Shown piece by piece: positions 19,476 to 36,620 of a stretch of 55,479 nt of DNA (position 1 is the first letter of the stretch; every line of letters starts with the position of its first letter). Below the pieces are notes generated by a model. That model did no database searches. It had not been told where the DNA came from and saw only the letters and a program-made list of their open reading frames with translations. The position numbers and the translations under genes were made by a program. Source of the stretch: Lachnospiraceae bacterium (GTDB lineage Bacteria > Bacillota > Clostridia > Lachnospirales > Lachnospiraceae); NCBI GenBank assembly GCA_017619295.1, contig JAFZSQ010000049.1:1-55479 (forward strand), in the 5' to 3' direction.

Positions 19476-19530
19476 ATTCGTCTCCTCCTCTTAGGCACAA
19501 TTAAAGTTATAAAACCTTACTCTAAGTAAA

Positions 19531-19543: not shown

Positions 19544-19605
19544 CCGAGGAGAATTCGTATTGCTATTTATGTCATTTTTTGAAAAATCTTGGCGTCTTTT
19601 GCATT

Positions 19606-20910: not shown

Positions 20911-20954
20911 GTGTTTGACTTTATCTGATTATAATGTTAATATTCTCTTGTAAA

Positions 20955-21089: not shown

Positions 21090-21095
21090 GCTATT

Positions 21096-21124
21096 ATTAT
21101 ATGGTGTGAACAAACGTTCGTCAA
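21096..21124 (-). promoter_or_regulatory. Promoter of the signal peptidase-sortase gene
   Basis: Minus-strand TTGACG (21124-21119), a 17-base spacer and TATAAT (21101-21096). The predicted transcript begins at the first base of the structured leader. A second, weaker TATAAT occurs at 20933-20928, closer to the gene, with a poorly spaced TTTACA. Confidence 0.8.
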
Positions 21125-21156
21125 TGAATTTGTAGTATAAAATGCAAAATATGCAA

Positions 21157-21187
21157 AAACGGCTCGAGTTTCCTCGAGCCATTTTTG
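21157..21187 (-). terminator. Terminator of the vWA/TasA-like operon
   Basis: A stem GGCTCGAG-TTTC-like loop-CTCGAGCC followed by ATTTTTG lies about 35 bases past the last TasA-like gene. The flanking A and T runs would let it work on either strand. Confidence 0.85.
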
Positions 21188-21222
21188 TATGTTTGTTTAA
21201 ACTTGATTAGTTATTAATCAAC

Positions 21223-21825: not shown

Positions 21826-21854
21826 AACTTAATCTCCTTACTTAAAGCAACCTA

Positions 21855-22421
21855 TTACTGCTGTGCTGCTGTCCAAGCTTCTGCTACTGAAGCAAATCCA
21901 GCCTTCTGAACTGCATAAGCTGAAATAGCGATATCAGTAAATGTTGTGTTCTCATTCTCCTCGTTAACAATATTTGTGTTAACAGTAAAGCTCTTGAAAA
22001 GTGTAAATGCTGTGTCTGCTTCGCTCTTAGGAACTACTCTGTAGTATACGTCTGCTACGCCATCTAAAGCTGCCCATCCACCATTTTCATTAAGAGTGTA
22101 GTTATTAAGCTGAAGTTTGTCACCGTTTGCATTTACAAGCTTAACGAAAAGATAGCACTCCTCTGAATCAGCTTTAACTGTAACAACGGGCTCCTTTGAA
22201 TATGTCTGGCCGGGAATAACCTTCTCATATGAGAAACCAGTCTGTCCTTCTGCTAACTCAACACCATCTTTAAACTCAGTGAGGTCGATCTTAACCTTAC
22301 CAACTGTGAATGTGTTGGTAACTGTGCCTGTCTTATCTGATAAGTAAGCAAGTGTTGCACCAACGCCAACTGCAGCAACTAATACAAGTGCTACTAACAT
22401 TGTGATTAAACTTTTTTTCAT
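21855..22421 (-). CDS. SipW-dependent TasA/camelysin-like surface protein B
   Basis: A 188-residue exported protein. The ATG at 22421 follows AAAGGAG and gives a clean signal peptide (MKKSLITMLVALVLVAAVGV...ATLAYLSDKT); the frame upstream is open but overlaps the signal peptidase gene and is rejected. The mature part follows the TasA layout (FTVGKVKIDLTEFKDG, KVIPGQTYSKEPVVTVKADS, CYLFVKLVN). Its signal peptide is nearly identical to that of the next gene while the mature parts have diverged, which points to duplication. It sits directly after the SipW gene, its likely processing enzyme. Confidence 0.87.
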   Translation of the reverse strand: MKKSLITMLVALVLVAAVGVGATLAYLSDKTGTVTNTFTVGKVKIDLTEFKDGVELAEGQTGFSYEKVIPGQTYSKEPVVTVKADSEECYLFVKLVNANGDKLQLNNYTLNENGGWAALDGVADVYYRVVPKSEADTAFTLFKSFTVNTNIVNEENENTTFTDIAISAYAVQKAGFASVAEAWTAAQQ

Positions 22422-22515
22422 TTTAAGCATTCTCCTTTTGTGTTTTCCTTTGTGTTTTGGTACTTTTTTATCATAAAACCACTCGGTCACATGGTGGTCA
22501 TATGCGTTAAATAAG

Positions 22516-23028
22516 TTACTCTTCTTTTGTCCCCTTCTTATCCACTTCTTTTGACAGTACATTCGGCAAGAATGTAAGAAGAATCAGGATAAACAAGAGT
22601 CCACATACACAAGCGATTCCTATGGGTGTTTTGATGTAGATTACTACATATCCCGCATATGGAAGTTTGCTCATTGCATGTCCTACAACTTTTTCGTAAG
22701 GAACAGGATTGCTGTCCTCAACATTATTGGCATCACCCTTTGTTGTGAGCTGTTTTTTGTTCTTGTCGTTCTTAACAACTCTGTGAGTTACCATTGTGTC
22801 GCCTTCAAGCTGATAGGTGACAATCTGTCCCGGTGTAATGGTCGCGGGATCAACTTCCTCTGTGATTACTATTGAACCAACAGGTATCTCAGGTTCCATA
22901 CTTCCTGATAAAACCGCAAAGGTCTTCATTCCAAGAATCCTGGGAACTATCAGGTACAATGCCAATGCAGCTAGGGCAATAATAATCAGGATGTTGATAA
23001 TGCTACAGATTTTTTTGAAAGCTTTCAT
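22516..23028 (-). CDS. sipW: SipW-type signal peptidase I
   Basis: A 170-residue membrane peptidase. An N-terminal membrane segment (about 10-30) leads to the catalytic S43 in LSGSMEPEIPVG. H82 in VTHRVV takes the place of the lysine found in ordinary bacterial type I peptidases, and TKGDANNVEDSNPVP follows. A second membrane segment lies at about 131-152. This is the SipW/archaeal/ER group that removes signal peptides from TasA-like proteins. It lies between TasA-like genes A and B in the same operon with an AAGGAG site. It is related to, but distinct from, the peptidase half of the sortase chimera downstream. Confidence 0.93.
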   Translation of the reverse strand: MKAFKKICSIINILIIIALAALALYLIVPRILGMKTFAVLSGSMEPEIPVGSIVITEEVDPATITPGQIVTYQLEGDTMVTHRVVKNDKNKKQLTTKGDANNVEDSNPVPYEKVVGHAMSKLPYAGYVVIYIKTPIGIACVCGLLFILILLTFLPNVLSKEVDKKGTKEE

Positions 23029-23050
23029 GATTTTTTACTCCTTGGTATCT

Positions 23051-23611
23051 TTAGTTGGTAGTTGTATTACCATTATATGCGTTCCAAACATCCTGGTAAA
23101 CACTTACCCCCTCAAGGTCAGCCACAATGGCTTCCTGATACACAATTACGTCAAAATCTTTGAAATCTACTGTCGCTTTCGCCTGTCCATTACTGTAGTC
23201 AACCCAGCCTGCAGGAATTGTCACCTTTGTGAAAATCGGTGAGGTTAATCCCTGAGGAGCAACCTTTTCGGTGTAGTAGTAATATCCGTCACCACCATCA
23301 ACCCAATTGGCTCCGAGTTCGTTAACTGCTATATTTTCACCTGCAGGTGTGATGTTGATTCGTGCTCTTATGTAGCAATCGTTTTTGCCAACATTCTTAA
23401 CTTGAGGATCCTTATTGATAACTGTAGCTGTTTCAAAATCGAAATGTTCCTCAGTTATCTCTGTCTCGACACTACCTACTACAAATGTGTTCTTAACCTC
23501 GTTAGTTCTGCTTGTTAAAAACGCATATGTGCCAAAAACGGATACTCCCAAAACTGCTATAAAGGAAGCTACTATGATGGCGGTTCTTTTAAAACTTCTT
23601 TTCTTTTCCAT
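23051..23611 (-). CDS. SipW-dependent TasA/camelysin-like surface protein A
   Basis: A 186-residue exported protein with the signal AIIVASFIAVLGVSVFGTYA followed by FLTSRTNEVKNTFVVGSVETEI, matching the SipW-substrate pattern. Further TasA-like features are INKDPQVKNVGKNDCYIRARINI, where a proline-or-asparagine-led strand precedes a conserved Cys-Tyr, and VDFKDFDVIVYQEAIVA near the end. It lies 15 bases after the giant vWA gene and 23 before sipW, with an AAGGAGG site. Its mature sequence is well separated from B and C, so it may have another position in the fibre, for example at its tip or base. Confidence 0.86.
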   Translation of the reverse strand: MEKKRSFKRTAIIVASFIAVLGVSVFGTYAFLTSRTNEVKNTFVVGSVETEITEEHFDFETATVINKDPQVKNVGKNDCYIRARINITPAGENIAVNELGANWVDGGDGYYYYTEKVAPQGLTSPIFTKVTIPAGWVDYSNGQAKATVDFKDFDVIVYQEAIVADLEGVSVYQDVWNAYNGNTTTN

Positions 23612-23625
23612 TGTCTACCGCCTCC

Positions 23626-26600
23626 TTATTCACCGTGACGCTCATCGCTGTCACTGGTCTTCACTTTCTTTAATTCTATTGTTCCGTCTTCTTTCTTTTT
23701 AACGGAGTTAACTACCAAATCCTTGTCTGCAAAGTTCTTCTGGCTTACAGCCTTGTTTGTGAAGTAGCAGGAAGTATTCTGTGGATTATCTTTGTTAATT
23801 ACTATGTTTTGATAACCCTGAGCATCTATCTGCTGCCAGCCCTTTGCTTCAAGTTCTCTTACTGTGTACTTACCGGCACCAAGGTGGTTGAATGTTACCG
23901 ACTTCTGAGTGCTGCTGTAATCATTAAACGTAAGAGCCTTGGTCTGTACAACCTTGCCGCTTTCATCAAGTAACTCGTATGTGAAGATTGGCTGTCCGTC
24001 ATATGTAAGCTTTGCAGCATCCTGAATGTTATCAATAAACTTTGTTACAGTAATCTTGCCATCTACAATTTTTATGGTGTACTTACCGGTTACCGAGAAC
24101 TCCTGAAGTTTATTAGCAGGTGAATTAGCGCTTGATGACGGTGTGTATGTTACCTTGCCGTAGAAAGGAGTTTCCTTAGTGGGTTTAAGTGCTAGCAAAT
24201 CATCTAATGTAATAGGATGTTCGCAAGCTTCATCGGTAAACCACTCAACATCTGACTTAGTTACAAAGACGAACATATCGTCAGCATAAGCATCTTTTGC
24301 AAGAGCATTCTTAACTTCTTCAAGTCTTCCTTCAACACCAAGCACAGTGCTTACAGCTTCACCAAGGAAGATGGTATTCTCTGCATCTCCTGCTTCAGCA
24401 ATACAGTTGACATCTACATAAGGTGTTTCCTGAGAGAACTCCTTAGGATCTTCCTCACCATCGGGATCTTCAACTGTAACGATGAAATCTACGTTTGTAG
24501 GAACACCATTACCACCTGCAAACTCATCCTTAGCTTTCAGGTAGATTGTCTTGGATACTCCAAAGTTACCATCGGCTTTCTCTGTTGATGAAAGTCCAGT
24601 CCATGTAATCGTCTGAAGTCCGTTCTTCTCACCTACAACACCACCATCAAATGTATCTCCAGTTCTAAGGGGATTTCCATTTTCATCAATCAGTATGAAG
24701 TAATTTGAAACCTCATCATAGAATGTAATGTTGTCTAAAGCGATAGGCTCTGTTTCTTCACTACCGGGTGTTGAAATAGTATCATATATATGATCGAAGT
24801 TTGTAGCTATTGAACTTGCGCCATCACCTGAATAAACATGTGATGTATCTGTTGCTACACTGTTCAAAAGATCAGGGTGTATACTTCCCATTCCAACTGA
24901 GAAGATTTCAACGCCTCTGTCCTTGAGCTTTTTCGCATTTGCGGTGGCCTGTCTATCGTGTTCTGCAACCCTTTCATCTTCATTATGTCCGGGATAAGCA
25001 GAAGTACTGGTGCTGCCAATATATGTATCTCCATCAGTAAAGAAAACTACGTAAGTCTTTTCGTATTTCTTATCTTTCTGGGGAAGAATCTGGCTTTCAA
25101 TAATCTTCAAGCCTTCGTTGGCACGCGTTCCGCTTCCTGTTGTCGGTAATGAAACGCTTCTCAAAACATCCGCACGCTTCGCTTCTGTATCAATCTTAGT
25201 AAGCGGAACATTTATGCTTGCAGTTCTCTGGAATGAAACAACCGCCACTTCGGATTCAAGAGGTAATCCCTGGATAAAGCTCTTGGTCTGATTCTGAAGT
25301 TTAGTTAAAGGCCAATCTTTCTCAGGCTTTTTACTATCCCTCATGGATGAACTTGCATCCAGGAGGAATACTACCTTAACAGGGGTCTTAATTGTTGTTA
25401 CATGCTCGCCTTCCTTGGTTACCTTATTGAAGGTTTCCGCGCCAAGTTCAACTTTGTATGTTCTGTCTGTCCAGCTCTTTATCTCGCCGTCTTTCCAGGT
25501 TGCAGTCTTTGAAGTCGTAACCTGCAAATCGTAACCTTTAACGATAACCTGGTACACACCTTCTTTTACCGCTTCGCGCTTATGATTCTCAAGTTCCCTA
25601 TCCATGTAGTAATAGGTGCCATCCTGAGTCATGGCAGATCCGACCTGAGACTGAGCGCTTGTTCCGGATGTTTTAGGAACAGCTTCGACAACAAAGTAAT
25701 ATTTTGTGTCTTCCGTAGGAGCTTTCTTCTTTAATTCCTCAAGAGAAATCTCTTTTTTATGTAGCTCATCCTCGTAGAATGTGATTGTTACATCGGCATA
25801 TTCCGAATCTTTAGCTGTTGTAAATCTGGGATCCTTAGGCTCTTCGCCCTCTTCTACTTCTGTTTCGTCATGGGTCCAAACTTCAGCTAAATGCTTTTCA
25901 AGGTACTCTTCAAGAGTCTTGCCACGTTTAATTATATCTATCTGGCTATTAGCATCCACAACACCCTTAACGTTTACTTTTGCTGTTGATGCGCTTAAGG
26001 TTCCTACACCACCTGCTGAAAGAGTCACATCAGATGCAAGTGAAACAACAAAACTTGAACCTGCGTTAGTGTTAACTACGTTACCACCCACAAACTCATC
26101 TTTGGCAACAACATAAACGCTCTTTGTGAATTCTGAGTTGGTACTAATCTCTATGTCTGACCATGTTATTTTCTGAAGTCCTGTCGTAGGATCCGTAGTG
26201 ATGGTTGCTCCATCAAATGAATCTACAGGATTTCCTTCTCTATCTGTAATAACAAAATCTTCTGATATAGTATCCTCAAATGTTCCTCTAACTCCTGTGC
26301 CTATTGAAGAACCAATGGTTCTGAAGGCCTCTACTATATCGCTCATATTTCCTGACTGATAGCAGTGATTAGCATCTGTAGCAATCAAGCCAAGCAAATC
26401 GCCCGTAGACTGACCAAGTCCAACAGCATAAATAGATACACCCTGTTCTTTTAAATAGTCGGCCTTTGTTTTGCAGGCATTTACTTCAACTGAGCTGTCA
26501 TTATTTGTTTTTGACACTTCACCATCGGCAAAGAACACAAGGTGGCAATTTGCATTTAATCCACCCTTCATGGCTTCAAAAGCTGTCTGTACTTTCTCTA

Positions 26601-28650
26601 ATCCTGACAGGGGATGTGTAGCAGTAGAATGTTTACCAATACAGTTCTTAAGTCCATCCTTAACTGCTGTTCTATCATTGTTTGAATTAATTTTCGTTTG
26701 CGAAACAACAACCGCATCAGAGATACCGTTATCATTAAACTTGATAACTTCTATCGTAGTTCCTTCATCCAACTGATCAACAAGTTCGGACGCAGCTATG
26801 ATAAACATATCGGAACGTGTTGTATATGCGCTCGAACCGGTGAACTCTTGTGTTTTCCCAGAACCATTTGCTGTGACCTTTAGTGCGTTATTACCCTTTA
26901 AATCATTAATGGCCTTTTGATACCACTTGCCATCTTTCCAGAAAATATACATACTTCCGGAATCCTGAGGAATATTCTTATATGTATCAGTGCTGTATGT
27001 ATCATTATCGTTCTTCTTCTGGCCTATAGGTAAATAGCTTCTTGCGTTGCTGGCAACCTTAAACTCATCTGTATACTTGCTACTAGCCTGTGTAAAATAA
27101 ATTCTATCTGTATGTTTGTTCATCTCAGAGATACTGATTTGAGCATCGTTGTAAATCATACTTCCCGATGTATCAGCAAGAATGACAACTTTTGCTTTAG
27201 ACTTTCCAATATACTGAGAATTCACATATGCAGATAAATCAATTCTGTATAATCTCTTCTCCCAATCTTCAAGTGTTGCAGTCTTTGTTGCAGACTGAAG
27301 TGAACATACTACAGATGCCTCTCTATCATTAGTTATATAACAGCCCTCAATGTTATTCTCACTGGCAATAAAGCTTTCAATGCCAAAATCTGACTCTGAG
27401 AATTGATCATTATCATATACATACACTGTATTATTACCATCATACATGTACGGAATTATATACCATCTGTTGTTGGGGACTGAGTATCCACTCGGTGCTT
27501 CAGTCTCCTCGAGTACATAGCAATACCAATAGGATGAATAGTCTCCGCTAGACTCTTCAATTTCGAAGATGGCCTTACCATTTTCGCTCCTAACAGTACC
27601 GTTATAACTTGAATCCAACTCCATGTCATTAAGGTTGCTAGGATAATAATGATATTTTCTGTATCTTGATATTGTAAACTGAGCACCACTCAAAACAGTG
27701 TTGGTATTAGCTGAATCTACAACTGTCCATTTGGCAGTTACTCTATCACTTCTGTTTACAGAAATTACATAAACAGAGAAATGCGTTGTCTCCATTTCAA
27801 TAACATCTGTTGTCTGATTAGTCTCTTCATCAGTAACAGTTACAACCTCAGAAGACATCTCTTCCTTAATAGTTGTAAGGTTATCATCAACGTGGTAAAC
27901 AGTAACAGTCTCACCGGCTGCTTCATCAGGGATGATCATGTCGCCTTCGAATGATACTTTTACGGACTCACGGTTAAGAGGCTGAACATCTTCCTCTTCT
28001 CCGTCTTCATTCTTTATCTTAAGAGTAATATCAAAAGCTTTGTATGTCTTAACGATTGTCTGGGTTTCTTCTGCTGCATCCTCAACCAGTTCTTCAACCT
28101 TAACGGGATCTACTTCAACAGCAGATACATATGTACCCTCAACAAAAGCGTCCTTTAATCCACTTACAGTGATGGTCACGTCATCAACGGTAACAGGAGC
28201 AAGGGTTACTGTATCTTCTTCCTCTTCCTTAAGTTCTTCAGCTTCCTTAGCTGCTAAGGCTTCCTCGTCTAACTCAGCTTCTTCGTCGAGTTCCTCATCT
28301 TCTTCATCGGTCTCGGCATCTTCAACTGTACCTGCAAGAGGTGTTTCGCCTTCTCCGATTTCTGTGAGTTCTGTCTCCTCAGTAGAAGCTTCTGTTTTTT
28401 CCTCGGACTCAGTAGGCTCAGTTGTAGTGGGAGTCTCTGTAGTCGCAGGAGTCTCAGGCTCGCTTTCCTTATTTTCGTCGTCAGCAGGTGTGACATCTTC
28501 CCATAAGGATGACGCCTCTTCTCCTTCCGCCTCTTTTATAACCTGGGTGCTGCCCTCCAAGTCAGATGCGACTGTGGGAAGAACATCTCCAGCAAGGAAT
28601 ACAACGGCTAAGAGCGTTGCCAGAATCCTTTTTACCATACGTGACTTCAT
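23626..28650 (-). CDS. Giant surface protein with two von Willebrand A domains
   Basis: A 1674-residue exported protein. After a signal peptide (about 1-29) comes a 110-residue Glu/Thr/Ser/Pro-rich stalk, a beta-rich region, and a SpaA/Cna-B-like domain near 300-430. The first vWA domain has the metal-site motif DTSGSM near residue 491, and a second has DASSSM near 1097. A final SpaA-like domain (FTYELLDESGK ... GAGKYTVRELEAKGW) ends it. It has no LPxTG signal and no C-terminal membrane segment, so it must be held by partners. Tip adhesins of pili share this domain mix. First gene of the TasA-like operon, with an AAGGAGG site. Confidence 0.88.
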   Translation of the reverse strand: MKSRMVKRILATLLAVVFLAGDVLPTVASDLEGSTQVIKEAEGEEASSLWEDVTPADDENKESEPETPATTETPTTTEPTESEEKTEASTEETELTEIGEGETPLAGTVEDAETDEEDEELDEEAELDEEALAAKEAEELKEEEEDTVTLAPVTVDDVTITVSGLKDAFVEGTYVSAVEVDPVKVEELVEDAAEETQTIVKTYKAFDITLKIKNEDGEEEDVQPLNRESVKVSFEGDMIIPDEAAGETVTVYHVDDNLTTIKEEMSSEVVTVTDEETNQTTDVIEMETTHFSVYVISVNRSDRVTAKWTVVDSANTNTVLSGAQFTISRYRKYHYYPSNLNDMELDSSYNGTVRSENGKAIFEIEESSGDYSSYWYCYVLEETEAPSGYSVPNNRWYIIPYMYDGNNTVYVYDNDQFSESDFGIESFIASENNIEGCYITNDREASVVCSLQSATKTATLEDWEKRLYRIDLSAYVNSQYIGKSKAKVVILADTSGSMIYNDAQISISEMNKHTDRIYFTQASSKYTDEFKVASNARSYLPIGQKKNDNDTYSTDTYKNIPQDSGSMYIFWKDGKWYQKAINDLKGNNALKVTANGSGKTQEFTGSSAYTTRSDMFIIAASELVDQLDEGTTIEVIKFNDNGISDAVVVSQTKINSNNDRTAVKDGLKNCIGKHSTATHPLSGLEKVQTAFEAMKGGLNANCHLVFFADGEVSKTNNDSSVEVNACKTKADYLKEQGVSIYAVGLGQSTGDLLGLIATDANHCYQSGNMSDIVEAFRTIGSSIGTGVRGTFEDTISEDFVITDREGNPVDSFDGATITTDPTTGLQKITWSDIEISTNSEFTKSVYVVAKDEFVGGNVVNTNAGSSFVVSLASDVTLSAGGVGTLSASTAKVNVKGVVDANSQIDIIKRGKTLEEYLEKHLAEVWTHDETEVEEGEEPKDPRFTTAKDSEYADVTITFYEDELHKKEISLEELKKKAPTEDTKYYFVVEAVPKTSGTSAQSQVGSAMTQDGTYYYMDRELENHKREAVKEGVYQVIVKGYDLQVTTSKTATWKDGEIKSWTDRTYKVELGAETFNKVTKEGEHVTTIKTPVKVVFLLDASSSMRDSKKPEKDWPLTKLQNQTKSFIQGLPLESEVAVVSFQRTASINVPLTKIDTEAKRADVLRSVSLPTTGSGTRANEGLKIIESQILPQKDKKYEKTYVVFFTDGDTYIGSTSTSAYPGHNEDERVAEHDRQATANAKKLKDRGVEIFSVGMGSIHPDLLNSVATDTSHVYSGDGASSIATNFDHIYDTISTPGSEETEPIALDNITFYDEVSNYFILIDENGNPLRTGDTFDGGVVGEKNGLQTITWTGLSSTEKADGNFGVSKTIYLKAKDEFAGGNGVPTNVDFIVTVEDPDGEEDPKEFSQETPYVDVNCIAEAGDAENTIFLGEAVSTVLGVEGRLEEVKNALAKDAYADDMFVFVTKSDVEWFTDEACEHPITLDDLLALKPTKETPFYGKVTYTPSSSANSPANKLQEFSVTGKYTIKIVDGKITVTKFIDNIQDAAKLTYDGQPIFTYELLDESGKVVQTKALTFNDYSSTQKSVTFNHLGAGKYTVRELEAKGWQQIDAQGYQNIVINKDNPQNTSCYFTNKAVSQKNFADKDLVVNSVKKKEDGTIELKKVKTSDSDERHGE

Positions 28651-28663
28651 CTATTTCCTCCTT

Positions 28664-28680
28664 AATTCCCTTAGGGAATT
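28664..28680 (-). promoter_or_regulatory. Hairpin just upstream of the vWA gene ribosome site
   Basis: The palindrome AATTCCC-N3-GGGAATT lies in the mRNA leader immediately before the AAGGAGG site. A hairpin here could stabilise the message or tune translation. No function is proven. Confidence 0.4.
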
Positions 28681-28720
28681 TCATTACAAAAAAACAGTAT
28701 TATACACAATCCCAAGCAAA

Positions 28721-28754
28721 ACTATACCAAGTCAAAGTCACACACGAGTCACAC
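28721..28754 (-). promoter_or_regulatory. Promoter and direct-repeat operator of the vWA/TasA-like operon
   Basis: Minus-strand GTGTGAC-ACGA-complement spacer-GTGTGAC: two identical heptamers with an 11-bp period (28754-28748 and 28743-28737), then 10 bases and TATAGT (28726-28721). No -35 box exists. The same arrangement precedes the second surface operon at 34319-34352. SARP-family activators bind heptamer direct repeats with 11-bp period just upstream of the -10 box, and a SARP-like regulator is encoded between the two sites. A second TATAAT-like box lies nearer the gene (about 28703-28698). Confidence 0.72.
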
Positions 28755-28787
28755 AAAAAAAATTGGCCTGAAAAATCAGACCAATTT
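28755..28787 (-). terminator. Terminator downstream of the Rpn fragment
   Basis: Stem AAATTGGTCTGA/TCAGGCCAATTT with one G-U pair (28787-28760), followed by eight T on the minus strand. It ends directly at the operator repeats of the vWA operon. Confidence 0.85.
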
Positions 28788-28798
28788 CAATATTCTTT

Positions 28799-29362
28799 CT
28801 AATTTGATTCAAGTTCTCTAATTCGTTTTCGTAAAGCTTCATTCTCAGCCTTCAAATCATCTATCTGATCTTGATAATACCCATGGAAGCTTGCTTGAGA
28901 ACGATTGTAATCTTCGCGAGCTTCACATTGCATGCGTATGCGTTCTTCAGCCGATATTTCCTTGACTTCCGTTGCTATTGTCTTGAAGATTGGTTCCTTC
29001 TCTGCCAGCATTCTCAATTCCTCCCATGTTTTCGATCTGAATAGTTCAGCCCATGAATCTAATTCATTGGCCTTGTCTTCATCAGTAGCCAAGTCTATCC
29101 GATTCAAGTCTAACACAGAGAGCTTGATTTTGTCACTATAGACTCGGTTATTCCGCGTGTTCATAACCATATAATCAGCGTAAAATTCCGGTGCATCTTC
29201 AAATAGTGTGAAGTTTAAGATACCAATTTGGTGAACAGGCAAAACCTTGTCATACCGCTCCCCTTTTTCAAGCCTGTCAAAAGTTCTGCATAGATACGAC
29301 AGTGAGCGTTCTACCCAATATGATATGTTTATAGGAACGACCGCATACAATAGACTTTCCAA
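28799..29362 (-). pseudogene. 5'-truncated Rpn-family recombination-promoting nuclease
   Basis: An open frame of about 187 codons matching only the C-terminal two thirds of Rpn/PD-(D/E)XK transposase-like nucleases (SYWVERSLSYLCRTFDRLEKGERY, VHQIGILNFTLFEDAPEFY, KLSVLDLNRIDLATDEDK). It ends in a charged coiled coil (DDLKAENEALRKRIRELES). Intact members are near 300 residues; the N-terminal part with the metal-binding catalytic residues is missing and no good start or ribosome site is visible. I read it as a dead remnant, stranded between the regulator operon and the vWA operon, possibly marking past rearrangement. Confidence 0.75.
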
Positions 29363-29431
29363 AGATTTTATAAAGCTTTTATTTCTTGTTTAGAATTGCA
29401 TCATCTGCAAACCAGGCTTTTCCTTAGGCAT

Positions 29432-29457
29432 AAAAAATGCGGCATTGCTGCCGCATT
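29432..29457 (-). terminator. Terminator of the regulator operon
   Basis: Stem AATGCGGCA-GCAA-like loop-TGCCGCATT with a T run on the minus strand, 9 bases past the stop of the 141-residue protein gene. Confidence 0.9.
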
Positions 29458-29465
29458 TACACTCA

Positions 29466-29891
29466 TTATATTAAATTGTCAATGGTCTCCATCAACTCCA
29501 GATCTCCGTTGAAAGGAGTGCCACCATCCATGCCCGGCAACAGGACAACTCCCTGCCAGGTGGTGTTGCATCGGCTGGTCACAATTATGTCAAAAGTGGC
29601 CTTTTTGCCCATTTTATCAAGGATTTCTTCAGGAGCGACAACGCCTTCAGGGATGCCCCTGTACTCGTTTGTCTTCTCCGGTTTCTTCTCGAAACTTCTC
29701 TTGTCCTGGAAGGACTGGGGATAGCCCACTTCATCAAACATAGTATCCAGAATCAGGAATGACTCTGCACCCACAAAATTGATAGGCTCCTTTGTCAGGG
29801 GGGTATAAATAGTCCCGGACAAGCCGTCTTTGATTCCGTCAATGCACAATCTGAATGCATTTGCGGGATAATTAGTATTATTTATCTCCAT
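29466..29891 (-). CDS. Hypothetical protein in the surface-system regulator operon
   Basis: A 141-residue soluble protein I do not recognise. It has no signal peptide or membrane segment. The composition is ordinary, with a central charged stretch (FQDKRSFEKKPEKTNEYRG) and a C-terminal part rich in Thr and Gly. It lies 19 bases after the SARP-like regulator and before a terminator, so it is cotranscribed with it. It might be a partner or modulator of that regulator; nothing in the sequence proves this. Confidence 0.65.
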   Translation of the reverse strand: MEINNTNYPANAFRLCIDGIKDGLSGTIYTPLTKEPINFVGAESFLILDTMFDEVGYPQSFQDKRSFEKKPEKTNEYRGIPEGVVAPEEILDKMGKKATFDIIVTSRCNTTWQGVVLLPGMDGGTPFNGDLELMETIDNLI

Positions 29892-29910
29892 CTCAATTCT
29901 TACCTGTTTG

Positions 29911-31128
29911 CTATCTCACGAGAACAGAAGGAGTGCTCTCCACCTGCTCCATCTGAGACTTTACAATAACCTTCTTACTTCTTTGTAACGATTTGAAATC
30001 GTTGATTACGCGCTTTGCGACTGCCTTTGTTGCCTCATAGGTGCAGCTGGGCAAAAGCACGATAAACTGAGTATCGCTGTATCTTGCAGCAATATCTCCG
30101 ACCCTTAATGTTCTCTTTAATGCCTTCTCAAGCTGACCCATGGCCTGCTTAATAAGGAATCTTGTCATGTGCTCGTTGGAATTATCGACCTCTTCCCCAA
30201 GCTCAGCAGTTAATAATAACACGTGTTCTGCTTCGGCTACTCGGGTCATCTTTCTGGCTTCAACACGGTAAATTTCCCTGAAAACAGGGTATCCGCAGAG
30301 ATAGACGCCCTCCACATCTTCCTCTTCAGCCATATCGTCATAGATGTTCTCGATGTTCTCTACAACGGCGCCTTTATTCATCTTCAGAAGTTCTTTTTCA
30401 ACCTCTGCAAGTTTCTTTGTTCCTCTGACTCCCAAGGCATCCTGTAATACCTTCTTGGCATTCTCAAAATTCTTGAGGGCCAGTTCATTCTTCTGCTGCC
30501 CTATTAAGGATTTGATAAGATCGCAGTAAATCTGCTCATCCACATCGTCAAATCTTAAAGCATGGGTACAGATATTCTCAACATCCGCGAATCTCTCAGC
30601 CTTCAGATACAAAGCGGCCAGTCTCTTCACGGCGGTCAAATACATGGAGTGATAATATGTGGCGGAAGTTACCATCCAATGCTTATCCGCACAATTCTCC
30701 AGAAATTCGCCTCTATACATTTCCAAAGCTTCCTCAAATCCGCGGGTTGCTTCATCCGCGTCCTTTGAAGCCTTGGCTCTCTTTACATTCTTCTCGAATT
30801 CTTCAATATCAAGTTCAGTCTCTAACTGGGGATTCCAACTGTACGAACCGGAACCGGTCACAACGAAGGTAGCATCTCCAAAGTTCTTCTTCATTACTGC
30901 TCGAAGCCTGTACATTAAATTCTTCAGGGCTCCTGCGGGATTCTCTGTTTCATCATCCTGCCAGAGGGCGCCGAATAATTCCTGTACGGTAACGGGATGC
31001 TCCCTGTGAATAACCAAATAGGTTATCAGCTTCTTAAGCATGTCTGAACGAAGTCCATCATCGTCAAGGCATACACCCGAGTCGGTATCAATAATCGTAA
31101 AACTGCCTAATGCACAAATCTTAATCAT
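29911..31128 (-). CDS. SARP/BTAD-like regulator with degenerate GGDEF domain
   Basis: A 405-residue cytosolic regulator. Residues 1-100 are an OmpR-type winged helix (LRSDMLKKLITYLVIHREHP, VQELFGALWQDDE, LKNLMYRLRAVMKKNFG). Residues 105-250 are a BTAD helical-repeat domain (LETELDIEEFEKNV, EALEMYRGEFLENC, LIGQQKNELALKNFE). Residues 270-385 look like a GGDEF fold (GDIAARYSDTQFIVLLPSCT), but the signature reads SDTQF (351-355), so cyclase activity is unlikely. Such regulators activate promoters through direct heptamer repeats. It lies between two surface-protein operons that both carry such repeats. It follows an XRE regulator gene by 45 bases and has an AAAGGG site. Confidence 0.85.
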   Translation of the reverse strand: MIKICALGSFTIIDTDSGVCLDDDGLRSDMLKKLITYLVIHREHPVTVQELFGALWQDDETENPAGALKNLMYRLRAVMKKNFGDATFVVTGSGSYSWNPQLETELDIEEFEKNVKRAKASKDADEATRGFEEALEMYRGEFLENCADKHWMVTSATYYHSMYLTAVKRLAALYLKAERFADVENICTHALRFDDVDEQIYCDLIKSLIGQQKNELALKNFENAKKVLQDALGVRGTKKLAEVEKELLKMNKGAVVENIENIYDDMAEEEDVEGVYLCGYPVFREIYRVEARKMTRVAEAEHVLLLTAELGEEVDNSNEHMTRFLIKQAMGQLEKALKRTLRVGDIAARYSDTQFIVLLPSCTYEATKAVAKRVINDFKSLQRSKKVIVKSQMEQVESTPSVLVR

Positions 31129-31173
31129 ATTCTACCCTTTACATCATAAGATGTACTATCCACACACGATACA

Positions 31174-31677
31174 TTATTTTATCTTACTTAAAAGATTCTT
31201 GTCAATCTTTCCCTCGGCTATAGTTTTGTCTACCCAAAGCTGTAAGCCGTCCACCGATGTGGCAATTTTGCGGAGTTCCTCCTTGATTGCAACGAAATCT
31301 TTTATTTCGTCCTCGGATATCTCTCCGTCAACAGTAATCTCTATAAGTCTTTCCTTTTCCTTGTTTACGCTATTAAGGCCCGCAAGCATTTCTAGCACAA
31401 TCTGTGACAGGCCCTTCACTTCAAGAACAGGCATGTTCTTCTGGCCTATGGGACACTCGTGTGTGCAGTAATAATTACAAAGTTCAGGGGATTTGTAAGC
31501 AGATGCCATGGCAAGAATTTCGTCAGGATGAGGAGTTGTCTTCTCACTTTCAATCTTTTCTATTCTATCTGAAGAAACGTATCCCATCTCCTCAGCAGCC
31601 TTGTCCCTGGTGTAATCCATGGCTTCTCTGGCTAACTGATATACGTTTTTGTTCTCTTTAATTGATTTCTTTCCCAT
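31174..31677 (-). CDS. XRE-type helix-turn-helix regulator with Cys cluster
   Basis: A 167-residue protein. The first 65 residues form a Cro/C1-type helix-turn-helix (YQLAREAMDYTRDKAAEEMG, RIEKIESEKTTPHPDEILAMA). A Cys/His cluster follows (ELCNYYCTHECPIG), which may bind metal or sense redox state, then a helical C-terminal region. It starts after a CCGGAGG site and leads an operon with the SARP-like regulator. It might control that regulator or respond to the cell's redox state. Confidence 0.8.
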   Translation of the reverse strand: MGKKSIKENKNVYQLAREAMDYTRDKAAEEMGYVSSDRIEKIESEKTTPHPDEILAMASAYKSPELCNYYCTHECPIGQKNMPVLEVKGLSQIVLEMLAGLNSVNKEKERLIEITVDGEISEDEIKDFVAIKEELRKIATSVDGLQLWVDKTIAEGKIDKNLLSKIK

Positions 31678-31746
31678 TTTGCCCTCCGGACTGATATTAA
31701 TTATCCTACCATAGCAAATAGCAATAGTAAAGTGAACCCGTTAAGC

Positions 31747-31774
31747 AAAAAAAGTCGAGCCCTAAGGCTCGACT
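31747..31774 (-). terminator. Terminator of the second surface operon
   Basis: Stem AGTCGAGCC/GGCTCGACT with a four-base loop (31774-31753), followed by seven T on the minus strand, just past the stop of the last gene of the operon. Confidence 0.92.
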
Positions 31775-31787
31775 TAATCTTCAATTT

Positions 31788-32813
31788 CTACTCTTCCCCG
31801 TCTGATTCAGATTTTCTGGGATTCTTCTTTGTGTATACATAGAAGCCAACTGCGATAGCCGCAATCAATGCTCCTGTAAGAATCAGGTAAGGAAGATTGG
31901 TTGTCTGAGAGAGGTTTGCATCAAGGGGAGTTTCAGGTTCCTCGATGTTTGTTGTTGCCTCCTCGGGACTCTCAGGAATTCCTGCAGCAAGTGCTGTCTG
32001 TCCTTCGTCGATGGTTGTCAACTCAGCAGGTGCTTCAGCTGCTGCGGCAGGTGCTACTGCTGCGGGTGCGGCTCCACCGCCACCGCCTGCAGGCGCTGCT
32101 GCTCCGGGAACAGTCACTGACTCAACAGTTGTTACTGTGCCACCATCCGTGAGGAGTGTGCTCTCGGAAGTAACGGCGTATCTGTCCTGAAGGACGTATT
32201 CGAAAATAAGAATATTGTTATCAGGATCTGCATCAAGTACAAGGTTTCTTGTTACCTCTCCCTGGAGAACATAGAAGGCTCCTGCGCTTACGGGAATATT
32301 GGCAAGAGCGGTAAATGAAAGCTCGTCTCCTACGTTACCTCTGTTGAAAACAGGGGGATAAACGCTTGTCTCTGTTCCCTTAATAAGGAACTTAACCTGA
32401 TACTCTATTCCATCTATAAGTCTACCGAACTGAGGAACATAGTCCGCATTCTTTGTAACGGCTCCTTCTACTGTCTCATTCCACTGCTGACGATAGTAGT
32501 AATCATCCTTTGCCTCAATACCAAGAGGTGCTGTAATCTGCGCGCCAGGCTTAACCACAAGCTTGATAGCTTTATGGGTTGTGGTCTCAGCAGAAATAAC
32601 GCCCTCCTGCTTTCCATAAATTGCTACGACATCGTCGATATCTGTAAATGAACCAACGTTTCCGGGATGGAAGGTAACTGTATATGTCTTGCCTGTGTAT
32701 ACGTCTTCACTTTCAAGATCAGTTGCCTGTACTGTCATACCGGCTACCATTGTGAATGCCAAAGCTGTGGCAACCGTAACGGAAATTCTGGTTAAAAGTC
32801 TTTTAATTCTCAT
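31788..32813 (-). CDS. Exported, C-terminally anchored surface protein F (Ala/Pro/Gly linker)
   Basis: A 341-residue surface protein. It has a signal peptide (about 1-30), two beta-rich modules (KTYTVTFHPGNVGSFTDIDD ... and GIEYQVKFLIKGTETSVYPPV ...), and an Ala/Pro/Gly/Glu linker at about 225-300 suited to spanning the wall. A C-terminal membrane segment (LILTGALIAAIAVGFYVY) and basic tail (TKKNPRKS) follow. No canonical LPxTG motif is present; the nearest is NLPYLILTG inside the membrane segment. The start overlaps the end of the previous gene by 11 bases. It is last of three genes behind the second repeat-type promoter. Confidence 0.78.
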   Translation of the reverse strand: MRIKRLLTRISVTVATALAFTMVAGMTVQATDLESEDVYTGKTYTVTFHPGNVGSFTDIDDVVAIYGKQEGVISAETTTHKAIKLVVKPGAQITAPLGIEAKDDYYYRQQWNETVEGAVTKNADYVPQFGRLIDGIEYQVKFLIKGTETSVYPPVFNRGNVGDELSFTALANIPVSAGAFYVLQGEVTRNLVLDADPDNNILIFEYVLQDRYAVTSESTLLTDGGTVTTVESVTVPGAAAPAGGGGGAAPAAVAPAAAAEAPAELTTIDEGQTALAAGIPESPEEATTNIEEPETPLDANLSQTTNLPYLILTGALIAAIAVGFYVYTKKNPRKSESDGEE

Positions 32814-33546
32814 TGTTTCCGGCCGCCTTTCTTCTTAATCCCATAATAACCATTACCGCACCGGCAAGAATCACAACTGCTCCTGCCCACCAGATGAATG
32901 TATCACCGGTCTGAGCCGCAAGTGCAACCTTCTGATCAAAGATCTTAAGGTATTTGGTCTCGCCTGACTTGGTTACTACTTTATATACGGTATAAGGACC
33001 TGTAGGATCTTCATATCCTGCACTGAAAGCAAAATCAATCTGACCAAGGGCTGCAGCGTATCCTGCTTTGTCAACGCCCTCTCCGTCAAGGCCTATTGTA
33101 AGGACCACATCTGTTGAAGTTCCTTTTGCAAGAGTTCCGATAAGAATCTTGTCATTAAGGCTTGCGTTAATGTCCTTAAGTCCTTCTGTGCTTCCTGTTC
33201 CGGCTGCTGTATAACCACCGGCTGCAGAATCATAGATAACAGTGCTGCCTGCAGTAAGCTTAACGTTGTAGCCTGCTCCGGAACCACCATTGGATTCCTC
33301 TAAGGCTTTAACAACATCAGTGCTCATGTAGAAATCAGCAGTGTTGTTATTGTCATTCTTAACTTGGATGGTAAGTGACTTGGTCTCACCGGGAGCCATT
33401 CCATTGAATGTGCTTCCTACGGAACTGGGTGTGTTAAGTTTTCCGTCCGCTCCAAATGTTACTGTAGAGTCTGCTGCTTTTACCGGCATAACACATGTTA
33501 TGGCAAGTAATACTGCAGCTCCTAAAATGCATATTTGCTTTTTCAT
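32803..33546 (-). CDS. Exported surface protein E with sorting-signal-like C-terminus
   Basis: A 247-residue protein. The ATG at 33546 is chosen over one four codons upstream because GAGGACC lies at the right distance. After a signal peptide ending in MPVKA|AD, the mature part resembles camelysin/TasA proteins in one stretch (NGMAPGETKSLTIQVKNDNN, TADFYMSTDVVKALEES). The C-terminus reads LAAQTGDTFIWW, then a membrane segment and GLRRKAAGNNEN: the layout of a sortase signal with QTGD in place of LPxTG. It is the best candidate here for anchoring by the sortase half of the chimera. Second gene of the operon. Confidence 0.8.
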   Translation of the reverse strand: MKKQICILGAAVLLAITCVMPVKAADSTVTFGADGKLNTPSSVGSTFNGMAPGETKSLTIQVKNDNNNTADFYMSTDVVKALEESNGGSGAGYNVKLTAGSTVIYDSAAGGYTAAGTGSTEGLKDINASLNDKILIGTLAKGTSTDVVLTIGLDGEGVDKAGYAAALGQIDFAFSAGYEDPTGPYTVYKVVTKSGETKYLKIFDQKVALAAQTGDTFIWWAGAVVILAGAVMVIMGLRRKAAGNNEN

Positions 33547-33585
33547 ATAGGTCCTCATTTCTGTCTGTGTTTTAGAAATGTTTGT

Positions 33586-34257
33586 TTACTCTTCAATGTT
33601 TGTAATGATACCTGTTTCTTCATCTATAACAGGGTATGCACCCCACTCAGCAAACATAGCCTGAGTTGAAATCTTAGAATCCGCAGTTGCCTGAACGGCA
33701 CATACTGTAATGTTTACATTAATAGTCTTGTCTGTGTAGGAGTTATCCATATCAGCGTCAAAAGAAATCTTGTTGATGAAAGATGAATCTGTGTAAGCAC
33801 CGGGAGCAAGCTTCTTGGTGTAGTACAGAATAATCTGCTCATCATCTGCAGTCTGAATGAACCAGTCGTTGATAACCTGGCCAACCTTAGATGCGTTAAG
33901 CTCATTGTCACCGATGTACAGTCTAACTTTGCCTGCATCAAGTTCATCCTTAAATGCGCCGTCCCACTGCTTATCAATAATTACTCTTGTGTAAATATCG
34001 TAAGCCTGAGCCTCAAGAGCGTTCTGAACAACATACTCTTTAAGATTTACTTCCTGACCGGGCATTGCTGCTTCGGGGATGGTCTCTGTGTTGTCATCTC
34101 CGGGTGCTGCCGCCAAAGCAACCTGCATATCATTCAATGTAATTGTTGCCTCACCGGGATTTTCTGACTCGGTATTAAAGCTTGCAAATGTTGTTCCGAT
34201 TGCTGCTGCAAGTACCAAAGCTGCTGCAATTACTGCGAGAACTATCTTCTTTTTCAC
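33586..34257 (-). CDS. SipW-dependent camelysin (CalY)/TasA-like protein D
   Basis: A 223-residue exported protein. I chose the GTG at 34257 (GGAG seven bases upstream); the frame is open to a TTG at 34296 with no ribosome site. The signal peptide IVLAVIAAALVLAAAIGTTF ends FASFNTESENPG as in camelysin. TasA-like strands follow: ITLNDMQVALAAAPGDD, MPGQEVNLKEYVVQNALEAQ, DIYTRVIIDKQW, and LYYTKKLAPGAY. First gene of the second surface operon, behind the same repeat-type promoter as the vWA operon. Its signal should be cut by one of the two SipW-type peptidases. Confidence 0.83.
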   Translation of the reverse strand: MKKKIVLAVIAAALVLAAAIGTTFASFNTESENPGEATITLNDMQVALAAAPGDDNTETIPEAAMPGQEVNLKEYVVQNALEAQAYDIYTRVIIDKQWDGAFKDELDAGKVRLYIGDNELNASKVGQVINDWFIQTADDEQIILYYTKKLAPGAYTDSSFINKISFDADMDNSYTDKTINVNITVCAVQATADSKISTQAMFAEWGAYPVIDEETGIITNIEE

Positions 34258-34318
34258 GCCTTTTCTCCAATCTATGTGCTGTGTATGTTCACACAATTTC
34301 TACATCATAACTGTCATC

Positions 34319-34352
34319 ATTATATGTATTGTTTGTCACACGGCAGTCACAC
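34319..34352 (-). promoter_or_regulatory. Promoter and direct-repeat operator of the second surface operon
   Basis: Minus-strand GTGTGAC (34352-34346), four bases, GTGTGAC (34341-34335), ten bases, TATAAT (34324-34319). Transcription would start about 55 bases before the GTG start. No -35 box is present. Heptamer, period and distance to the -10 box match the promoter at 28721-28754 exactly, while the spacer bases differ, which argues for a real protein-binding site. Confidence 0.75.
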
Positions 34353-34380
34353 GGCTAAAAAAAATATAAAGCAATAAAAA

Positions 34381-34402
34381 AAACTCGGTGTTACCCGAGT
34401 TT
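34381..34402 (-). terminator. Terminator of the rsmF operon
   Basis: Stem AAACTCGG/CCGAGTTT around a short loop, followed on the minus strand by a run of T. The rsmF stop codon lies inside the stem. Confidence 0.88.
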
Positions 34403-35728
34403 CTTTCTGAGTCCTTTTGGATAATGATTTTTTACCGTTCCGCCTCCGGCTTTTCCCCAGCCAAGGCTCATACCGTTTACACACACTATGCCCCAGCCCT
34501 TAAGATTAGGGTCACAGTTTACCGTGAGACCTTCTATATAAGATGAAGCTTCATTGATATCGGTATCAAAAAATCTAACCGCATCTTCCGTAGCCATGGC
34601 AAGAGCAAAAGCATGCTCCGGCTCAAACCTGTTCTTTTTAAAGCTTCCGAGAGCCAGACCCGGTCTTAGGACCTTAAGGCCCGAAAGCGACGGGCAATCC
34701 TCCGGCAAAAGATACAGCATATCCTTGTATGCGCAGAAGTTTCCTTCCTTTATCCTCTTATATAAATGAGAAGTGTTCTTTACAGTGTCTTCCATAAATT
34801 CGTTGAAACTTGTTGAATCAAGTTTTAACTTCTGCAAGGTGCCTCTTTCGTAGCCACCCTTCGGAACAGAAGTAACTGCAGCCCCTTCCTTCTCAAAAAC
34901 TGCCATAAAATGGCCTTCTCCCTCCACCTTATGGGGAAGCATTCTCTCTGAGGATATAAGCTTCGTATCCTCATATTCCTTCACAAACCACTCTGCGTTC
35001 CCTTCGTTCTCCCCGTACTCAAAGGTGCAGGTGGAGTAAACCAGCCTTCCGCCGGGGCAAAGCATTCTGTGCGCCGCGTCAAGAATCTGCCTCTGCCTTT
35101 CAATGCAGGTTTCCACATTGGTAACGCTCCACTCATCTATCGCCTCAGGATGTTTTCTGAACATTCCCTCTCCCGAGCAGGGCGCATCCACAAGTATCCT
35201 TTGGAAAAACCCTTCAAACCTCTCAGCTAATGCATCAGGCATCTCACTTACAGTAAGTGCATTAATGATTCCCATTCTCTCCATGTTCTCTGAGAGAATC
35301 TTGGCTCTTGAGGGGATTGGCTCATTTGAAATAAGAATGCCTTCTCCCTTAAGAAGCGCACCTATCTGAGTGGACTTTCCTCCGGGAGCGGCGCAAAGAT
35401 CAAGCACATGCATGCCGGGCTTCACATCAAGTAAGGTCACGGGCTTCATGGCGCTGGCTTCCTGAATGTAATAAGCTCCGGCCTCATGAAAGGGGTGCTT
35501 GCCCGGTGCATCCTCTTCCTCATAATAGAAGCCCTGTTCACACCAGGGAATATCTGTTAAGGAAAAAGGAAGTTCCGCCTTCGAAACTTCCTTATCATTC
35601 ACCTTTTTGAGCGAATTAATTCTAAGGGAGCGGCGGGCTTTCGCATCATAGGAACCATAAAAGGCCTCCCAGTCCTCTCCAAAGAATTCCTTCATTCTTT
35701 CTATGTAATCAATAGGTAAATTGTTCAT
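34391..35728 (-). CDS. rsmF: RsmF-like rRNA (cytosine-C5) methyltransferase
   Basis: A 445-residue SAM-dependent m5C methyltransferase of the NOL1/NOP2/Sun group. The SAM site is LDLCAAPGGKSTQIG; catalytic cysteines are in DAPCSGEGMFRK and YSTCTFEYGEN. The C-terminal 150 residues hold the RsmF-type extension and a PUA-like end (GWGIVCVNGMSLGWGKA). It would modify rRNA in the small subunit; the exact position is not certain. The start at 35728 has an AAAGGA site. It overlaps or follows the aldose epimerase gene closely and ends in a terminator. Confidence 0.88.
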   Translation of the reverse strand: MNNLPIDYIERMKEFFGEDWEAFYGSYDAKARRSLRINSLKKVNDKEVSKAELPFSLTDIPWCEQGFYYEEEDAPGKHPFHEAGAYYIQEASAMKPVTLLDVKPGMHVLDLCAAPGGKSTQIGALLKGEGILISNEPIPSRAKILSENMERMGIINALTVSEMPDALAERFEGFFQRILVDAPCSGEGMFRKHPEAIDEWSVTNVETCIERQRQILDAAHRMLCPGGRLVYSTCTFEYGENEGNAEWFVKEYEDTKLISSERMLPHKVEGEGHFMAVFEKEGAAVTSVPKGGYERGTLQKLKLDSTSFNEFMEDTVKNTSHLYKRIKEGNFCAYKDMLYLLPEDCPSLSGLKVLRPGLALGSFKKNRFEPEHAFALAMATEDAVRFFDTDINEASSYIEGLTVNCDPNLKGWGIVCVNGMSLGWGKAGGGTVKNHYPKGLRKKLG

Positions 35729-35741
35729 TCCTAATCCTTTA

Positions 35742-36620
35742 TCAGATCTCAATCAAATAGGATGTGTTAAACTCCTCATCCTTTTCAAGTCGGTTCACGA
35801 AATCCCTGTTCTGAAGAACGCCATCGGAGCCTAATCTGTCACATCTTCCAAGCCAGGGTTCGATGCAAACATACGGGGTTCCGGGCTCAAAGCAAGACCA
35901 GATACCGTAAACCGGTGCATCCATTGTCATGGTGACGTAGGGTTTTCTGTCAGCTCCTGCAAGGGAAACCTTGTTAATTCCCTGATTCTCCATGACCAGC
36001 GCATCTCCGTCGAAGAGATTGTCGCTTATGGGAAGGTATCCATCCTTTAATTCAAAAACCGTATAAACCTCATTTACGAGGCCCTGCTCCAAATCTACTC
36101 CACGGCTTACAATCTCGTCTTTATCATGGAACAAAACGAAGCAGTCTCTTCTTCTCTCTCCCTCATTGATAGGACAAACGAATCCGGGGTGAGCTCCAAG
36201 CATAAAATACATCTCATCTCCCGTCTCATTCTTCACTTTGAAGTCTGCTTTTACGCTTCTTCCGGATATGCTAAAAGTTATATCAAGATTAAACTTAAAA
36301 GGGTATACCTTTAAGGTCTCTTCTGTATCCTTAAGGGTGAAAGTCGCTGATTCTTTCGTGCAACCGCTGACACTGAACACTGAGTCGCTGGCGAATCCGT
36401 GAGGTGTCATCTGATAGGTCTTTCCCCTGTAGCTGTATTCCTTGTTTATACAGCGTCCAACGAAGGGAAACAGTACAGGTGAGCACTTGCCCCAAAACTT
36501 AGGGTCCGCACACCACATGTATTCCTTGCCGGTCTTCTTATCCACCAGGGAAACCATCTGAGCCCCCAGCTCATCGATTTCTACGCTGATTTCATCGTTT
36601 TCAAGTTTAATTCTTGCCAT
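35742..36620 (-). CDS. Aldose 1-epimerase family protein (LacX-like)
   Basis: A 292-residue galactose-mutarotase-fold protein. Family features include ISVEIDELGAQMVSLVDKK, YMWCADPKFWGKCSPVLFPF, MTPHGFA, MLGAHPGF and IWSCFEPGTPYVCIEPWLG. It would interconvert alpha and beta anomers of a hexose in the cytosol; the LacX subgroup's exact substrate is not established. No signal peptide. It precedes rsmF on the same strand and has a GGGGA site. Neighbours give no pathway clue. Confidence 0.85.
   Translation of the reverse strand: MARIKLENDEISVEIDELGAQMVSLVDKKTGKEYMWCADPKFWGKCSPVLFPFVGRCINKEYSYRGKTYQMTPHGFASDSVFSVSGCTKESATFTLKDTEETLKVYPFKFNLDITFSISGRSVKADFKVKNETGDEMYFMLGAHPGFVCPINEGERRRDCFVLFHDKDEIVSRGVDLEQGLVNEVYTVFELKDGYLPISDNLFDGDALVMENQGINKVSLAGADRKPYVTMTMDAPVYGIWSCFEPGTPYVCIEPWLGRCDRLGSDGVLQNRDFVNRLEKDEEFNTSYLIEI

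Follow-up and report, generated by a model that had tools for sequence, protein, structure and literature searches.

Two surface-protein operons on a 55,479-nucleotide contig of a Lachnospiraceae bacterium (GenBank assembly GCA_017619295.1, contig JAFZSQ010000049.1, positions 1 to 55,479; this whole stretch is the window) are each preceded by the same tandem-repeat promoter, and a gene for a protein resembling the Streptomyces antibiotic regulatory proteins (SARPs) lies between the two sites. Does this protein control both operons? SARPs have been studied mainly as activators of antibiotic clusters in Streptomyces, where promoters with 11-bp repeats are known. At their target promoters, direct repeats with a spacing of 11 or 22 bp lie immediately ahead of the -10 box. 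The sequence comparisons described here indicate that the protein encoded at 29911-31128 is very probably a SARP-type direct activator of a small surface-fibre and adhesin regulon.

A pattern search found the composite GTGTGAC-N4-GTGTGAC-N10-TATA(A/G)T twice in the window, on the strand and at the positions given by an initial annotation of this DNA. P1 (34352-34319, minus strand; GTGTGAC-N4-GTGTGAC-N10-TATAAT, GTGTGACTGCCGTGTGACAAACAATACATATAAT) stands before a camelysin/TasA-like operon, and P2 (28754-28721, minus strand; GTGTGAC-N4-GTGTGAC-N10-TATAGT, GTGTGACTCGTGTGTGACTTTGACTTGGTATAGT) stands before a vWA/SpaA operon. The search also confirmed that the two sites have the same heptamer, a period of exactly 11 bp, and 10 bp from the heptamer end to the -10 box, with different spacers; their flanks differ as well. 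One hundred dinucleotide shuffles of the window gave a chance expectation of 0.00 for the composite, and a chance origin was rejected. The double heptamer GTGTGAC-N4-GTGTGAC occurs only at P1 and P2 in the 2,754,050-base genome, and its reversed-pattern control gave 0. The looser core TRTGAC-N5-TGTGAC-N10-TANNNT is found at four places genome-wide with a control of 0. These are P1, P2, a third site in the window termed P3 (22503-22470, minus strand, ATATGAC-N4-ATGTGAC-N10-TATGAT; 22502-22470 in the looser search), and C12:8338-8371 on another contig. P3 lies between the stop of a SipW-like gene (22516) and the start (22430) of a TasA-like gene with a SipW-type signal. The C12 site is 26 bp ahead of a 60-amino acid open reading frame. 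The initial annotation was right about P1 and P2 and had overlooked P3 and the C12 site. The genome-wide motif search that it had proposed did not refute it, and each of the four sites precedes a gene.

None of P1, P2, and P3 has a -35 box, as had been claimed for the first two. The best TTGACA match at spacers of 15-19 is 3/6 at P1, 2/6 at P2, and 3/6 at P3, and an ordinary -35/-10 promoter was rejected for want of this hexamer. A sigma-70 scan of positions 21000-35000 listed 31 matches compared to 28.3 in shuffles, and P1, P2, and P3 were not among them. Because all three lack a -35 box, the basal promoters should be weak. Intrinsic-terminator-like hairpins on the minus strand end just before both P2 (28759-28788, with a T-run that touches the first repeat) and P1 (34376-34407), so P1 and P2 look like insulated stand-alone promoters. 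A known RNA element was rejected because no Rfam match above the gathering score was found in positions 19000-36000.

The gene at 29911-31128 does lie between P1 and P2, on the minus strand like the genes downstream of them, and the earlier identification of its product as SARP-like was borne out. The BTAD profile PF03704 is covered in full by residues 106-248 (E 4.8e-21). The N-terminal Trans_reg_C match (E 3.3e-05, 24.3 bits) is slightly under the cut-off of 26.2, and this predicted OmpR-type winged helix aligns with the DNA-binding domains of AfsR and EmbR. The same two proteins are the best solved-structure matches over the DNA-binding domain and BTAD, and they are weak (E about 1e-3); EmbR of Mycobacterium tuberculosis (PDB 2FEZ) is the better of them with E 0.00087. 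The recognition helix reads ALKN70LMY73R74LR. The last domain, which the initial annotation did not mention, matches Pfam GGDEF over 55 residues (E 2.7e-06) and has RYSDTQF at the GGDEF position; judged by these residues, it lacks the GG(D/E)EF catalytic motif of a diguanylate cyclase. No Pfam receiver match was found in the protein up to E 0.001. PhoB/OmpR-type response regulators have the same DNA-binding fold and use tandem repeats about 11 bp apart, whereas the window SARP has a BTAD and no receiver match. A 98% identical protein is encoded in a Lachnospiraceae bacterium. The degenerate GGDEF-like tail is also the last domain of the GGDEF proteins L182 1498-2847, L181 1504-2487, and L188 1474-2871, two of which have a receiver-like start by eye, and it is possibly a shared sensor module.

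The repeat geometry was surveyed in 397 Lachnospiraceae genomes using the pattern TGTGAC, gap 3-8, TGTGAC, gap 6-14, TATNNT. Seventy-six of the 85 listed rows were used after nine repeats of one element in genome G297 were dropped, and one G078 row was counted as spacer 7 though spacer 10 fits too. Near-identical copies from G001 were kept in the TGTGAC cell counts and excluded from the 39-locus search and the gene-start test below. The cell with period 11 and spacer 10 (11/10) holds 41 of the 76 rows, the next cell holds 5, and the other cells together hold 35. The reversed-pattern control gave 38 matches, about equal to the total of the other cells. This background is therefore real, and the excess is confined to one cell. 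SARP relatives, defined as matches to the window SARP as query at E <= 1e-20, are encoded in 96 of the 397 genomes. They are present in 21 of the 23 genomes with an 11/10 TGTGAC site (Fisher p 3e-12, indicative like the other Fisher value here since the tests treat related genomes as independent), but in 7 of the 29 genomes with only other TGTGAC spacings, which is the background level. A TGTAAC scan (136 listed rows, overlapping duplicates included) placed 29 rows at 11/10, and 11 of these 15 genomes have a SARP (p 6e-5). The TGTAAC 11/11 cell (19 rows in 16 genomes) showed no tie to SARPs (5/16). These data link one geometry to the genomes that encode the regulator.

A search of 39 SARP loci that presupposed no half-site also peaked at 11/10, with 25 places (17 TGTGAC, 7 TGTAAC, and 1 other); the 11/11 (14 places) and 11/9 (9 places) cells mostly represent these sites shifted by one base. 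Many 11/10 sites fall at SARP loci. The interval from -30 to 160 bp relative to the -10 end contains the start of a same-strand gene at 35/39 TGTGAC and 8/9 TGTAAC sites, compared to 307 of 4000 random positions. The genes behind the motif appear by eye to be mostly TasA-like or giant secreted-type, with some members of a family that we label TWQG and, at locus L130, a SARP. The hexamers and the TAT..T letters are fixed by the search pattern, so the other columns alone are informative in a tally of the related sites, and the clearest of them is a pyrimidine after the first hexamer. The heptamer first described is present at P1 and P2, but its first G is weakly preferred over the related sites.

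Other geometries were also seen. TGTGAC/TGTAAC repeats that keep the period of 11 but have a spacer of 11 occur in G610, G700, G587, G507, G011, G395, and G012 without a tie to this SARP class. These repeats, in genus g154 and others, form a separate class that perhaps belongs to another regulator or to another SARP code; the SARPs of the g154 genomes carry an LRAIVF helix. The SARP loci L139 (G049) and L161 (G004) have TGTAAC repeats at period 12, with spacers of 10 and 11, and all three genomes in the TGTAAC 12/11 cell have a SARP. These repeats suggest a changed period in some branches.

The half-site class agrees with the class of the recognition helix. Distant SARPs adjoin TGTAAC repeats that have the 11/10 geometry as well. 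The first comparison found Asn70 in 18 of 19 SARPs of TGTGAC loci and in 0 of 6 of TGTAAC loci, all six of which have Thr. After 40 more SARP loci were included, Asn70/Tyr73 was present at 16 of the 18 SARP loci with an exact TGTGAC 11/10 site and Thr at none of them, and Thr70 was present at all six SARP loci with a TGTAAC 11/10 site. Genomes G078 and G102 hold both SARP classes plus both motifs. Arg74 is invariant in a 20-row alignment. In a tree calculated with residues 70 and 73 masked, the Asn/Tyr forms fall in separate groups, and the Thr/His protein L075 of G078 is nested among Asn forms; the TGTAAC 11/10 site of G078 is on another contig.

We propose that two SARP protomers would bind directly and side by side on the two TGTGAC repeats, 11 bp apart. 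With sigma region 4 held above them, the bound SARPs would make up for the absent -35 box, as homology with AfsR predicts, and sigma-A RNA polymerase would then initiate from the TATNNT box. Arg74 and residue 70 of the recognition helix would reach the bases, with Asn70/Tyr73 going with TGTGAC and Thr70 with TGTAAC. Input to the regulator probably comes through the degenerate GGDEF-like domain. The predicted regulon in this genome consists of the genes behind P1, P2, and P3 and the 60-amino acid TWQG gene on C12. The SARP had been named as the candidate regulator of two operons. Its candidacy is supported comparatively, and the support exceeds proximity because one geometry, 11/10, goes with genomes that encode a SARP and the half-site tracks the helix class; the predicted regulon is larger than first supposed.

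AfsR and the afs box of Streptomyces coelicolor are the closest model for this proposal. The AfsR structure report (PMC10936776) describes sigma adaptation, in which sigma region 4 is held above the SARP protomers, and base contacts by T88 and R92. Both systems have an OmpR-type DNA-binding domain plus BTAD and two direct repeats 11 bp apart at the -35 place. The base-contacting helix positions are homologous, with T88 aligning to N70 and R92 kept as R74; the TGTAAC class has Thr at the former position, as AfsR does. The window SARP differs in having Asn70/Tyr73 where AfsR has Thr88/Ser91, in its predicted TGTGAC half-site, in a degenerate GGDEF-like C terminus in place of the AfsR NOD-TPR, and in its Lachnospiraceae host and predicted surface-operon targets. 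The residues reported there as touching the beta subunit or sigma region 4 are T63, D71, L243, E246, L247, and V249, and three of the six (L243, L247, and V249) are kept in the window SARP. By that paper's own definition of the repeat, the -10 of the afs box lies 8 bp beyond the 3' repeat, compared to 10 bp after the heptamer here, a difference of 2. The distances would agree if the fourth base of TGTGAC is read by residue 70 in the way that T88 reads -36/-25, assuming that the afsS -10 hexamer is at -12 to -7. EmbR ends in an FHA domain (PMC10936776), and its host and targets differ as well. The sites described here have the period and -10 proximity of SARP targets, and they are presumably those of the SARP encoded among them. 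The Actinobacteria host and antibiotic-cluster target, which are absent here, are typical of the members that have been studied and are not structural features.

Other explanations of the shared promoter were compared with direct activation by the SARP. The identical heptamers could mean that P1 and P2 are recent copies or a repeat element and play no part in regulation, but this is scarcely credible. The spacers and flanks differ, on which ground recent duplication was rejected, and the same arrangement stands ahead of genes in divergent genomes. A different reading makes the repeat-bound SARP a repressor or roadblock, given that the repeats overlap the core of the promoter and that position by itself leaves the sign of control unset. 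We consider this very unlikely, because P1, P2, and P3 lack the -35 box and because a fixed distance to the -10 box is a requirement of an activator that touches RNA polymerase and therefore counts against a repressor. The repeats might instead be bound by another winged-helix regulator, such as an OmpR/PhoB-type response regulator encoded elsewhere, with the SARP a bystander or downstream in the same pathway. OmpR-family regulators likewise use direct repeats about 10-11 bp apart, the spacer-11 repeat exists untied to the SARPs of this search, and G038 and G246 have the motif without a BTAD protein and encode what appear by eye to be receiver-winged-helix proteins. This alternative is nonetheless unlikely. 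A SARP is present in 21/23 genomes with 11/10 TGTGAC sites whereas other spacings are at background, many of the sites are at SARP loci, and the half-site class tracks the SARP helix class even inside G078 and G102.

Several observations weigh against direct activation by the SARP or against the residue assignments that go with it. No BTAD protein was found in G038, which has five TGTGAC 11/10 sites, or in G246, which has one, and a secreted-type gene lies no more than 160 bp from three of the five G038 sites and from the G246 site. A search for the regulator of these sites yielded none. The best full-profile matches in both genomes are GGDEF proteins that share the C-terminal domain of the SARP alone, and their winged-helix matches are, by eye, response regulator-like proteins and, in G038, also a 152-amino acid protein. 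Either another winged-helix regulator can occupy such sites or the SARP is absent from the assembly. Assembly completeness is 80% for G246 and 96% for G038, and for G038 the absence of a gene from the assembly, though possible, is improbable. Genomes G183, G283, G325, and G368 have TGTAAC 11/10 sites and no SARP at 1e-20. The two TGTGAC exceptions have Ile (L122) or Val (L130) at residue 70. An Asn/Tyr SARP is also encoded in each of these genomes, but the SARPs that adjoin the sites are of other residue classes. For 20 Asn/Tyr and 18 Thr SARPs, the retrieved locus stretch contains no exact site. T63, D71, and E246 of AfsR are not kept in the window SARP. The motif switch maps on the tree as one change, or as two with genome-level labels that were assigned by hand, including that of L075, so the link to residue 70 is phylogenetically clustered. 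An independent-pairs test had one to two pairs, too few for statistics. The agreement between half-site and helix is consistent with co-evolution and is not statistical proof for residue 70.

A further sample, drawn from the order and comprising 373 genomes (some of the family genomes scanned earlier among them), gave new 11/10 sites in G695, G705, and G409. G695 and G705 fit by helix and site: their SARPs match at E about 1e-144 with ALKNLMYR helices, and the sites are ~90-100 bp before a gene that starts like that of a secreted protein. G409, which belongs to another family and has one 11/10 site, adds to the points against with no SARP match at 1e-20. So do five of the nine genomes with other spacings, which match a SARP at 1e-20 with a 20-row profile. 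SARP presence alone is therefore not discriminating in this sample. These five matches are weaker, and the SARPs have other helices, namely LRAIVF (G610, G700, and G587), FNNLIY (G699), and another type (G496). The G699 helix is Asn/Tyr by position, yet this genome has a spacer-14 match only.

A broader proposal, to which we give a little less than an even chance, is that, throughout the Lachnospiraceae, surface fibres and giant adhesins are under a family-wide switch made up of SARPs whose sensor is a degenerate GGDEF-like domain. The switch would include a recurrent TWQG partner and a recognition code in which Asn70/Tyr73 reads TGTGAC and Thr70 with Phe, Ser, or His73 reads TGTAAC, and regulator and operators would have changed together, apparently twice. 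Literature searches that covered open-licence papers only turned up no account of fibre or adhesin operons under SARP-type control in Lachnospiraceae, of the TGTGAC half-site, or of the Asn/Thr correlation. The promoter logic of SARPs appears here to govern fibres and adhesins on the surface of gut-type anaerobes of a large family, in which the control of such genes is little understood. The motif amounts to a genome-readable regulon, and the correlation of Asn/Thr with G/A makes SARP DNA recognition directly testable. If the family-wide switch and its code are true, regulons would be predictable from sequence alone.

The gene order on the minus strand places the regulator between its predicted targets. 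P1 is followed by three secreted-type proteins (34257-31788), a terminator-like hairpin (31752-31775), the HTH protein, the SARP, its TWQG partner, a PD-(D/E)XK transposase-family gene, a hairpin, and P2. Downstream of P2 are the vWA/SpaA protein, a BsaA-like protein, a SipW-like peptidase, and P3, which is followed by two TasA/camelysin-like proteins and a peptidase-sortase fusion. Operon 1 begins with a secreted TasA/camelysin-like protein (gene A, 33586-34257), whose matches are weak (NCBIfam TasA 0.007 and Pfam camelysin 0.009). Gene B (32803-33558) is secreted-type by eye with homologues at 12 of 84 SARP loci, and gene C (31788-32813), found at 5 of the 84, is secreted-type with a C-terminal membrane segment, also by eye. 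Operon 2 encodes a 1674-amino acid surface protein (23626-28650; Pfam VWA 1e-25, SpaA 3e-07), whose gene is followed by those of a BsaA-like, SipW-dependent biofilm-matrix-type protein (23051-23611; TIGR04090 3e-08, under cut-off), and the SipW-like signal peptidase (22516-23028; TIGR02228 1.4e-34, and NF046067 1.1e-27, under cut-off). Operon 3 encodes the TasA-like protein with a SipW-type signal (21855-22430; TIGR04088 1.1e-06, above cut-off) and a camelysin/TasA-like protein (21223-21825; Pfam Peptidase_M73 4.9e-06, above cut-off). Several of these fibre-type assignments are weak, and those of the SipW-type signal at 21855 and the SipW-like peptidase are stronger.

Fibre operons of the TasA-SipW/BsaA/camelysin type are known in Bacillus and Clostridium, with SinR-type control in Bacillus. 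The window resembles them in having a SipW-like peptidase beside SipW-dependent TasA/BsaA-like proteins, and differs in that these occur together with a vWA/SpaA protein and a SARP. Related sites precede similar genes elsewhere. P1-like sites precede homologues of gene A in L038, L039, L040, L041, and L066 and in L037 of the same genus, and P2-like sites precede large secreted-type genes in L037, L038, L039, L040, L047, L127, and L128. The vWA/SpaA gene itself has homologues at L038 and L160 only among the 84 SARP loci. P3-like sites, with a weak first half (TATGAC), precede similar genes in L037, L038, L043, L044, L121, and L066.

The TWQG-family protein (29466-29891) has no Pfam family above cut-off and often neighbours the SARP (37 of the 84 loci); with the 60-amino acid form as query, relatives were found at 34 of the 84. 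The sequence of the C12 open reading frame, which includes a TWQG stretch, resembles by eye the C terminus of this partner, which is encoded right after the SARP. TWQG-type genes stand behind the repeat motif in several genomes, which suggests possible feedback. Another member of the family is encoded at L076 5399-5581. The HTH_3 protein upstream of the SARP gene (31174-31677) is a neighbour in none of the 84 loci. A possible sigma-A promoter of the SARP gene itself (31176-31205, minus strand, TTGACA-N18-TAAAAT) matches at 11/12 positions and has no repeats; this candidate is weak given the 31 matches in the region compared to 28.3 in shuffles.

A plasmid collection contained no near match of the locus. 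The PD-(D/E)XK transposase-family gene (28799-29362, minus strand) lies between the SARP operon and P2. P1 and P2 are 5598 bp apart here compared to 4938 bp in G001, so something of ~660 bp differs. The 434-amino acid protein encoded at 19606-20910 on the minus strand fuses a signal-peptidase-like domain (Peptidase_S26, 3.2e-05) with a sortase domain (4.4e-14), and at least partial homologues of it are encoded at 20 of the 84 SARP loci.

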